Positions 15,260 through 64,000 of a stretch of 64,000 nucleotides of DNA are shown piece after piece; the stretch's first letter is position 1, and each line of letters begins with the position of its first letter. Source of the stretch: Mesorhizobium sp. ES1-1 (GTDB taxonomy: Bacteria > Pseudomonadota > Alphaproteobacteria > Rhizobiales > Rhizobiaceae). The notes under the pieces are model-generated. The model saw only the letters and a program-made list of their open reading frames with translations, made no database searches and had not been told where the DNA came from. The stretch is taken from assembly GCF_020164785.1 (NCBI RefSeq), contig NZ_JAIUGX010000013.1, forward strand, positions 124,001 through 188,000, given 5' to 3'. Position numbers and translations under genes: made by a program.

Positions 15260-15370
15260 GATATTGCTACGGCAAATCCCGGGATATTGCCTATGGCAAA
15301 TCCTGAGACATTGCGATGGCAAATCCTGAGATATTGCGATGGCAAATCTGGTCGATTGCCATCGCGGTAT
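15260..15370. repeat. four direct copies plus one inverted copy of a 23-24 bp unit
   Basis: Copies begin at 15260, 15283, 15307 and 15330, each reading close to GATATTGCGATGGCAAATC; an inverted copy follows at 15354-15370. Each unit contains an inverted repeat ATTGC-N4-GCAAAT, so every copy could fold or bind a dimer. The block lies between argH and lptM. No spacers separate the copies, so it is not a CRISPR. Confidence 0.8.
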
Positions 15371-33133: not shown

Positions 33134-33982
33134 ATGCGGAAGATCGTAGCCCTCAAGCGCGTTCTCTACGACGCGCTCGGCCATTTCAACACCGACGACG
33201 GCTGGGCGATGGCCAGCCATCTGGCTATTACCTCGCTGATGGCGCTCTTCCCGTTCCTGATCTTTGCCACCACTCTGGCGAGCTTCCTTGGCGCGCAGGC
33301 GTTCGCCGACACCGCCGTTCACCTGGTCTTCGACACCTGGCCCGAACAGATCGCCAAGCCGATCGCGCGCGAAGTGCTCAATGTGCTGACTGTCCGGCGC
33401 ACCGACCTTCTGACCTATGGCGTGCTGCTGGCTGCCTATTTCGCGTCGAACGGCATCGAGGCGCTGCGCACGTCGCTCAACCGGGCCTATCGCGTCTCGG
33501 AAACGCGCGGCATCATCTACCGACGGGTGCAGAGCATCCTGTTCGTGCTGATCGCGACGGCCGGTTTCCTGGCGATCAGCGTGCTTCTGGTGTTCGCGCC
33601 GCTGCTGGCACGCCTGGCCGAAGCCCGTATCGAAGGCATCCAGCCCTATATGGGCACGATCACGCTCTGGCGATACGTCATCGCTTCCGCGGTCATCATC
33701 AGCGGATTGTTCGCCGTGCACATCTGGCTACCGGCCGGCAAAAGGCGCTTCGTTTCCATCGTGCCGGGTATCATTTTCACGCTGGTGGCCTGGCTCATAG
33801 GCTCGACGGTCTTTGCCGTCTATCTCGACCATTTCTCGTCTTACGTGACGACCTATGCCGGCCTCGCCTCGATCATGATCGCCGTGGTTTTCCTCTACAT
33901 GCTGTCGGCGATCTTTATCCTGGGCGGTGAGCTCAATGCCGCGATCAGCCGCTATCTGGAGGCGCGCGCCCGTGTGGGGTGA
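33134..33982 (+). CDS. YihY/BrkB-family inner-membrane protein
   Basis: The 282-residue product has six hydrophobic helices and the family signature MASHLAITSLMALFPFLIF near the N-terminus, RTSLNRAYRVSETRG in the middle, and SIMIAVVFLYMLSAIFILGGELNAAI near the end. It was once called ribonuclease BN, wrongly; its role is not known, but related proteins affect envelope or ion balance. The ATG at 33134 follows a GGAGGGACGC leader. It converges on a DMT gene through the 8-bp repeat region. Confidence 0.9.
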   Translation: MRKIVALKRVLYDALGHFNTDDGWAMASHLAITSLMALFPFLIFATTLASFLGAQAFADTAVHLVFDTWPEQIAKPIAREVLNVLTVRRTDLLTYGVLLAAYFASNGIEALRTSLNRAYRVSETRGIIYRRVQSILFVLIATAGFLAISVLLVFAPLLARLAEARIEGIQPYMGTITLWRYVIASAVIISGLFAVHIWLPAGKRRFVSIVPGIIFTLVAWLIGSTVFAVYLDHFSSYVTTYAGLASIMIAVVFLYMLSAIFILGGELNAAISRYLEARARVG

Positions 33983-33987
33983 GGGGT

Positions 33988-34140
33988 GCAGAATTGAGGA
34001 ATAGCAGAAGTGAAGAATTGAAGAGTTGAAGAGTTGCAGACGGGCGCCCGAGAGGGCAGCAATTCCTCAATTCCTCAATTCCTCAATTCCTCAATTCCTC
34101 AATTCCTCAATTCCTCAATTCCTCAATTCCTCAATTCCTC
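33988..34140. repeat. 8-bp tandem array with an opposed degenerate array
   Basis: CAATTCCT is repeated ten times without a mismatch from 34060 to 34139. To its left (33988-34035) about six degenerate 8-mers of AAGAATTG/AAGAGTTG type read as the reverse complement of the same unit. A 10-bp palindrome CGGGCGCCCG (34041-34050) separates the two. The whole could form one long hairpin between the convergent BrkB-like and DMT genes. The right array supplies the last codons and stop of the DMT gene. Confidence 0.95.
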
Positions 34141-35008
34141 TGCCCGGCCGAGCCGTCGCCAGGCCAACGCCGAAAGTCGTGATCGCCATGCCGACAATCT
34201 GCAACGCGTTGAGCTGCTCGTTGAACAGGGCCCAGGCGATGACAGCGGTCACCGCCGGCACCAGGTAGAAAAGCGAGGCGACCTTCGACATCTCGCCGTC
34301 GCGGATCATCACCATCAGCAGGAAGATGGCGCCGAGCGACAGCACCAAAACCAGCCAGGCGGTGGCGAAGATCAGTTCGCCGTTGATGACGACCGCGTGC
34401 GTCTCGAAGGCGAGGGCGGCGAGCATCATCAGCGCCGCCCCGCCGACATATTGCCACATGGTCGCCGCCACGAGGTCGCCGCCGGAGGCGAAGCGCTTTT
34501 GCCAGATCGTGCCGGCGCTCATGCCCAGCACAGAAATCAGGGACGCCGCCAATGTCGCCGTCGTCACGCCACCGCCGAGCGCGCCGAGCTTCGGCCACAG
34601 CACGGTGACGATGCCGATGAGGCCGATGCCAAGGCCGAGCCAATGGCGCGGCAAGATCGCCTCGCCGAGGAGCTTGCCTGCAAGCACTGCCGTGATCAGC
34701 GGCTGGAGGCCGACGATCAGGGCCGAGAATCCGGCCGGCATGCCGCGATGGATGGCCCAGAAGACGGCGCCCAGATAGACGCCATGCATCAGGACGCCCG
34801 CGCCGGCCGCATGCAGGGCTTCTTCGCGCGTGGCCCGTTTCGAGCCCAGCACCAGCATCAGCAGCGCCAGCAGGATCGCGGCCAGCACGAAACGGGCGGC
34901 GAGGAATGTGAACGGCTCGACCCATGGCATGGCGTAGCGCGCGCCGATGAAGCCGGTTGCCCACAGGACGACGAAGGTGGCGGGGATGAACCGCTTGATG
35001 CCGTGCAT
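34115..35008 (-). CDS. EamA/DMT-superfamily transporter
   Basis: The 297-residue membrane protein has ten predicted helices in two EamA repeats, starting KRFIPATFVVLWATGFIGARYAMPWVEP. It is probably an exporter of a small metabolite. The last residues (GIEELRN) and the TGA are encoded by the first 8-bp units of the tandem array, not by conserved sequence, so the natural C-terminus has been overwritten. A perfect 14-bp dyad TGAACC-AC-GGTTCA at 35091-35104 is upstream. No regulator gene is adjacent. Confidence 0.9.
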   Translation of the reverse strand: MHGIKRFIPATFVVLWATGFIGARYAMPWVEPFTFLAARFVLAAILLALLMLVLGSKRATREEALHAAGAGVLMHGVYLGAVFWAIHRGMPAGFSALIVGLQPLITAVLAGKLLGEAILPRHWLGLGIGLIGIVTVLWPKLGALGGGVTTATLAASLISVLGMSAGTIWQKRFASGGDLVAATMWQYVGGAALMMLAALAFETHAVVINGELIFATAWLVLVLSLGAIFLLMVMIRDGEMSKVASLFYLVPAVTAVIAWALFNEQLNALQIVGMAITTFGVGLATARPGRGIEELRN

Positions 35009-63902: not shown

Positions 63903-64000
63903 ATGAGGCCACAACAGCAGAACAGGCGCATGCGCGGTCGCAACAACAATGGCGGCGGCGGTGGCAACAACAATAATAACAACAATAATAACCGGAAGGG
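63903..64000 (+). CDS. DUF4167 domain protein, N-terminal part
   Basis: The first 32 codons read MRPQQQNRRMRGRNNNGGG followed by an uninterrupted run of nine asparagines, then RK, and the window ends. This start, basic and then Asn/Gly-rich, is characteristic of the DUF4167 family, whose conserved part (RNYESNGPDVKIRG-like) lies just after. The gene follows prfA-prmC in many Rhizobiales. The function is unknown; a nucleic-acid-binding role is suggested by the basic low-complexity tail but not shown. The end is outside the window. Confidence 0.85.
   Translation, partial: MRPQQQNRRMRGRNNNGGGGGNNNNNNNNNRK

Follow-up and report, generated by a model that had tools for sequence, protein, structure and literature searches.

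An octamer hairpin between convergent yihY and EamA genes of Mesorhizobium, most likely an orphan pair of arms from elements that carry an intervening sequence protein gene

The gap between the convergent YihY/BrkB and EamA genes of Mesorhizobium sp. ES1-1 holds a two-armed octamer hairpin that is most likely an orphan, gene-less pair of arms of what we term an ‘IVP element’, an arrangement of an arm, a PF05635/S23 four-helix-bundle gene and an inverted arm. We put the probability of the account as a whole at roughly two in three: a two-armed element, most likely of this descent, whose arms change by whole units and whose stem would act at the 3′ ends of mRNAs or through RNase III. The structure was studied in a 64,000-nucleotide stretch of DNA, which we call the window, where it is laid out as follows.

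33134..33982, + strand: YihY/BrkB gene (PF03631), which converges on the EamA gene; stop codon at 33980-33982, start codon taken by us as the ATG at 33134
33987..34040, + strand: left arm, a degenerate array reading GAAYTGRR on the + strand, sense for yihY
34041..34059, no strand: GC-rich spacer (loop) of 19 bp separating the arms
34060..34140, − strand: right arm, 10.1 perfect CAATTCCT copies; the − strand reads AGGAATTG, sense for the EamA gene
34115..35008, − strand: EamA transporter ORF (PF00892), for which the right arm supplies the final codons (IEELRN) and the TGA stop

As a sequence-only reading of the window had described, ten perfect CAATTCCT copies stand opposite a degenerate inverse array. 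Tandem Repeats Finder gives the right array (34060-34140) a period of 8 with 10.1 copies and 100% matches, and the left array (33987-34040) periods of 16 and 8 with 76% matches; the left units, GAATTGAG GAATAGCA GAAGTGAA GAATTGAA GAGTTGAA GAGTTGCA, are the inverted form of the right one. A 22-base pattern of three GAAYTGRR units, with 3 mismatches permitted, has 13 matches in the window, every one within or touching the two arrays, and none in 100 dinucleotide shuffles. Folded as RNA, the octamer region reaches z-scores of -4.7 on the + strand and -5.0 on the − strand, and none of 200 shuffles was equally stable on either strand. Because the GAAYTGRR unit includes a stop codon, the array shuts all three frames within 24 nt and such arrays can sit at gene ends; here the EamA ORF ends in GRGIEELRN, its last residues being encoded by the array. 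Two more loci with the window’s octamer unit bring the total in this 5.25 Mb genome to three. Elsewhere in the window there are also a 23-bp repeat, GATATTGCGATGGCAAATCCTGA, with 3.8 copies at 15260-15348, and 2.2 perfect copies of AACAACAATAAT at the window’s end (63966-63992).

What the sequence-only reading missed is that the structure is one of a set spread across the genus at conserved junctions, and most likely the gene-less arms of an IVP element. An exact run of three units is present in 11 of 101 relatives’ genomes, all 11 from one genus, and the octamer was found in 2 of 385 genomes of a class sample, namely the window’s own and one other; the relaxed unit GAAYTGRR is present in 37 of 61 genus genomes, recurring at a few conserved junctions. 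A scan for the hairpin shape (one genome per species, exact units, gap 20-50), biased to consensus arms and with IVP-bearing copies outside its reach, returned 107 stretches. Eight of these are from Bacteroidota, Rickettsiales and Ca. Desulfaltia, and 99 were treated as Mesorhizobium-type, meaning that the record is titled Mesorhizobium or is a Rhizobiales or Alphaproteobacteria record that we grouped with them. The main junctions of the 99 are GNAT/DUF2794 (33), YihY/EamA (24), LOG/HAD (13), LOG/LuxR (9) and LuxR/RcnB-like (8), where ‘LOG’ and ‘RcnB-like’ are names that we take to apply; Pfam gives ‘possible lysine decarboxylase’ for the former and no match for the latter. In 92 two-armed elements the ORFs on both sides could be called, and in 79 of these the flanking genes are convergent, with orientation judged from ORF length and GC3, and several of the 13 non-convergent calls fall at junctions that are otherwise convergent. 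Thirty loci located by a one-arm pattern tell the same way: both arms are present in 26, a + gene enters from the left in all 30 and a − gene lies on the right in 26, while the remaining 4 have a right-hand + gene and are, by coordinates, the co-directional tolB–pal junction. REP and MITE elements have fixed palindromic ends in many copies and a partner transposase; the window element has three loci in its host genome and variable ends. Carriage by phages was considered and rejected, as the hairpin pattern had no match among viral contigs. Rfam gave no match in the four loci searched (L082, L321, L404 and L340).

The history of the YihY–EamA junction was followed across 61 species: the octamer element occupies it in 26, a CATGATC-type palindrome in 7 and an unrelated long palindrome in 3, 24 have just a short gap, and 1 retains a decayed element (G050, classed as ‘other’); one species, G039, was placed among the short gaps by hand. 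In this last genome (locus L123) the EamA ORF beside yihY appears to be split by an insertion, with the match resuming about 1 kb further on. The CATGATC-type hairpins are those of L093, L097, L115, L117, L119, L128 and L130, and the long palindromes, of 150-200 nt and starting TGAGATGTG, those of L118, L121 and L124. A tree built from the flanking genes requires 14 changes of the octamer label, and well supported branches force no fewer than 8 of these. The 8 earliest-branching rows under the midpoint root are all of the short type, with genes that abut or overlap. The presence of a mere short gap in 24 of the 61 species indicates that the element is dispensable. A comparison of transporter C-termini among relatives, proposed in the sequence-only reading as a check on its claim that the right array had replaced the last codons of the exporter, settles that claim in its favour, as the tails differ where the element is absent. 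Without the element, the EamA tail is of TRARAS or LARAS type and antisense to the yihY end in 21 of 23 short junctions with data, whereas it is coded by the array in all 25 octamer-bearing junctions with data, often as ELRN followed by TGA (both judged by eye, leaving out G023 and G039).

The arms themselves differ between near relatives by whole units. Between M. ciceri WSM4083 and Mesorhizobium sp. M7A.T.Ca.US, two near relatives in a comparison set of one genome per species, the flanks are nearly identical and the array differs by 24 nt, exactly three units, consistent with the proposal that array length is variable. The predicted long hairpin likewise recurs, both strands folding with z < -2 at 22 of 25 octamer-bearing junctions. 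The left array had been called an older version of the right one; it is indeed the more degenerate in the window, but in relatives the perfect arm may be either of the two, and, given the lack of covariation between them, the arms seem to turn over independently. Loop pairs scoring at least 30 between species at this junction are in the same orientation in 23 cases and opposite in 20, which suggests inversion between the arms. Units vary mainly at positions 4, 7 and 8, the others being nearly fixed, in a parsing that leans to the consensus. Compensatory evolution of the arms was rejected: across 99 elements the C fraction of the left arm is unrelated to that of the right (rho 0.04, p 0.68) and swapping the arms does not worsen their pairing, two results that count against selection for an exact stem.

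The link to intervening sequence proteins comes from loci, in the window’s octamer family and in a second octamer family alike, where the facing arrays lie about 300-400 bp apart. The insert between such distant arms encodes a PF05635/TIGR02436 protein (‘23S rRNA-intervening sequence protein’, hereafter IVP, a four-helix bundle); the one at tolB–pal matches TIGR02436 at E 7e-30 and PF05635 at E 4e-31, and the nearest solved structure is 2gsc. PF05635 genes are present in 48 of 61 genus genomes and in none of 14 control genomes. We compared the flanks of IVP genes with shifted positions and with the rest of the window, using 50 of the 100 IVP matches listed (the 30 given as loci plus 20 of our own choice; one of the latter, L388, was already known to adjoin an array). 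The best period (7 or 8) was equal on both sides at 50 of 50 IVP loci, against 40 of 116 shifted positions and 294 of 1026 positions in the rest of the window. Both arms scored at least 9 at 41 of 50 loci (shifted, 0/116; rest of window, 1/1026), and at 39 of 50 the two arms were in addition the same unit inverted (0/116 and 0/1026); a scoring variant that lets masked bases match gave 49, 41 and 38 of 50 for the three criteria. Arm units differ by junction and include the heptamers AGGCAGT, AGTAGTG, GAATAGC and GTGAATG and the octamers AGGGSART and GAAYTGRR. IVP genes with arms of AGTAGTG type (L337, L343, L345, L350 and L352) lie between two genes that resemble nuoC and nuoD. The second octamer family (AGGGGAGT/AGGGGAAT/AGGGCAGT) is found in 31 of 61 genus genomes, also as facing arrays, and flanks IVP genes (L301/L323, L340, L347, L348 and L353-L355), AGGGCAGT being the arm unit in L340 and L348. 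Among units listed by hand, a stop codon is contained in 12 of 12 from Mesorhizobium and 11 of 17 from distant genomes, compared with 31-35% of random units. The window’s own genome has two IVP genes (L386 and L387), both heptamer-armed (GTGATTG/GAATGGT and GTAGGCA); its tolB–pal junction is empty and none of its IVP genes is armed with GAAYTGRR.

Outside the genus the signal of arms around IVP genes is weaker. In a sample of the window’s phylum, with a looser score limit of 7 in place of the 9 used for the genus and distant-genome tests, strict inverted pairs flank 10 of 24 IVP loci, or 8 of 20 once the 4 loci of the window’s own genus (which hold 2 of the 10 pairs) are left aside; the corresponding figures are 1 of 94 for shifted positions and 3 of 1045 for window positions. 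One of the 10 pairs, L406, repeats a distant-genome locus. In the distant genomes, at limit 9, strict inverted arms were present at 11 of 30 IVP loci. PF05635 genes are present in each of the 7 distant genomes to which the GAAYTGRR hairpin led, compared with 52 of 299 genomes of the window’s phylum; the rate among the 7 is biased by their choice through the hairpin, and 4 of them are Bacteroidota, which fall outside that base rate. Two Bacteroidota IVP genes (L362 and L377) have GAAYTGRR-like arms. Among Bacteroidota MAGs (L262-L285), one genome has 240 + 199 three-unit GAAYTGRR matches; the arrays of the Lewinella MAG are mostly single-armed, and in 15 of 20 loci, judged by eye, an array begins at most 17 bp from, or overlaps, the stop codon of a sense-strand ORF.

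The tolB–pal junction preserves the passage from full element to gene-less arrays. Across the 61 species, an IVP gene with GAAYTGRR arrays is present in 20, arrays without the gene in 13 and neither in 28, where G052 resembles a degenerate element but was scored as none and G039, with a partial IVP gene, was scored as IVP. Many of the species with neither show a plain GC hairpin with a T run. By the strict pattern, both arms are present in 15 of the 20 IVP rows, while the 13 gene-less copies have the left arm only in 11, the right only in 1 and both in 1. Two gene-less copies retain pieces of the gene: G032 has the first 11 IVP codons beside its left arm, in 62 bp that match G002 at 98% identity (E 1e-27), and G047 has the last 13 beside its right arm (89 bp, 89%, E 2e-30). 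These remnants indicate that IVP elements do lose their gene and so give rise to gene-less octamer structures. Placed on the YihY/EamA tree, which is only a proxy for tolB–pal, the states of this junction need 22 changes, and the octamer at YihY–EamA and the element at tolB–pal show no significant co-occurrence (17/9/16/19, p 0.19).

Taken together, the IVP genes between such arms, the presence of GAAYTGRR among the arm units and the gene-less copies at tolB–pal point to the window pair as most likely derived from an IVP element, and the same history would then apply at YihY–EamA. The window structure has facing arrays of a shared 7-8-nt unit, and that unit arms an IVP gene elsewhere, at tolB–pal; its 19-bp spacer holds no PF05635/TIGR02436 gene. 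As the defining gene is absent, we file it as orphan arms that work like, and are probably derived from, IVP elements and not as a full member. No IVP gene was seen at the YihY–EamA junction in the 61 species, and no IVP remnant was noticed in the loops. A further point against this origin is that the gene-less copies at tolB–pal are mostly one-armed, unlike the two-armed structure of the window. The two facing arrays of a purine-rich octamer, separated by a short loop, lie against the stops of two convergent genes. In the working that we propose, the arms would lengthen and shorten by whole units, each independently and presumably by slippage; and in RNA coming from either side they would pair into a long stem. 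Such a stem may give both mRNAs a hairpin 3′ end or, by analogy with the intervening sequences of 23S rRNA, may be cut by RNase III.

A hairpin of this kind could also have been selected as a bidirectional 3′ end, as terminator or mRNA stabiliser for both convergent genes, whatever its origin. The convergent placement of most two-armed elements and the stable folds on both strands would be expected from it, as would the unrelated palindromes that occupy the YihY–EamA gap in 10 of 61 species, and in 15 of 20 IVP rows at tolB–pal there is a TTTT run no more than 16 nt beyond the right arm, as in a terminator. Against this, 24 species manage with a short gap, swapped arms pair as well as native ones, and no intrinsic terminator, that is, no stem followed by a T run, was called between 33700 and 34400 in a scan restricted to loops of 3-8; we regard selection for such an end as on balance unlikely. 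Quite improbable, in our judgement, is a plain microsatellite without function or tie to IVP, in which slippage would have built up an octamer array where a gene ends, and template switching or a chance inversion would have produced the opposite arm. The whole-unit differences in copy number and the independence of the arms would suit it, and so would the absence of the element from many species and of IVP genes from YihY–EamA; against it, GAAYTGRR recurs at a few conserved junctions in 37 of 61 species and flanks the IVP genes of tolB–pal, and strict inverted arms stand at 39 of 50 IVP loci and at none of 116 shifted positions. Most doubtful of all is the octamer as a putative site at which a protein, possibly the IVP protein, binds DNA or RNA in a sequence-specific way, for although the unit differs from one kind of IVP locus to another and most unit positions are nearly fixed in our consensus-leaning parsing, no protein is known to bind the octamer, units at a single junction still vary at positions 4, 7 and 8, and the window’s genome has the GAAYTGRR unit without an IVP gene that bears it.

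The orphan-arm reading places the window structure among several repeats that have been described separately. In the available portions of its description, the intervening sequence of Coxiella burnetii 23S rRNA is a stem-loop element with an S23p ORF that is excised by RNase III and has been called selfish, its ORF being under reductive evolution (PMC4990558). On that account it resembles IVP elements in having complementary ends that form a stem and an S23-family ORF inside, whereas the Mesorhizobium elements lie between protein genes and have tandem 7-8-nt arrays as arms, and the window copy has no ORF; the window element itself lies between two protein genes and not inside a 23S rRNA gene. 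The HOOF-Print VNTRs of Brucella, as far as the excerpted reports go, have an 8-bp unit, AGGGCAGT, at eight loci with stepwise change in copy number (PMC7589603, PMC1183211). They share the octamer unit length with our arrays, and AGGGCAGT also arms Mesorhizobium IVP genes, but the unit in the window is GAATTGAG. For M. ciceri itself a satellite family (AGGGGAGT)2 has been reported (PMC6749651), octamers of the same genus that match our second family and that, in our data, face each other and adjoin IVP genes; the consulted part of that account makes no mention of facing arms, of IVP genes or of the CAATTCCT family (PMC6749651). TAACTGA heptamers, known as direct repeats from Beggiatoaceae, Cyanobacteria and Bacteroidetes with no evident mechanism of spread in the sections at hand, are similar in being short intergenic units that close every reading frame with a stop and that occur here and there in distant phyla; they differ in that, in the main species, most are direct repeats placed immediately before start codons (PMC4679880). 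The terms four-helix, S23, IVP, intervening and 23S are all absent from that text (PMC4679880). Among open-licence papers we found none linking IVP/S23 genes with tandem-repeat arms, and of six array strings searched there, one matched, in an unrelated goat study.

The finding joins subjects that are usually treated apart: the short tandem repeats by which strains are typed, the hairpins that lie between genes at their ends, and the S23/IVP proteins, known from rRNA intervening sequences. We consider it possible, at somewhat less than even odds, that many orphan 7-8-bp tandem repeats of bacteria, including HOOF-Print octamers, M. ciceri satellites and perhaps repeats of TAACTGA type, are arms or cast-off arms of one widespread selfish element. 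Such an element would have short-repeat arrays, inverted relative to each other, on the two sides of a PF05635 four-helix-bundle gene. It would settle at stop codons, often supply stops of its own along with a giant RNA stem, and leave slippage-prone repeats behind after loss of the gene, with the IVP protein acting on its own arms. If this is true, IVP proteins would gain a physical context in their own repeat arms, and orphan octamer and heptamer repeats, some variable bacterial repeats among them, would gain an origin. A single genus would then offer a natural series at one junction, from full element through gene-less element to empty site.
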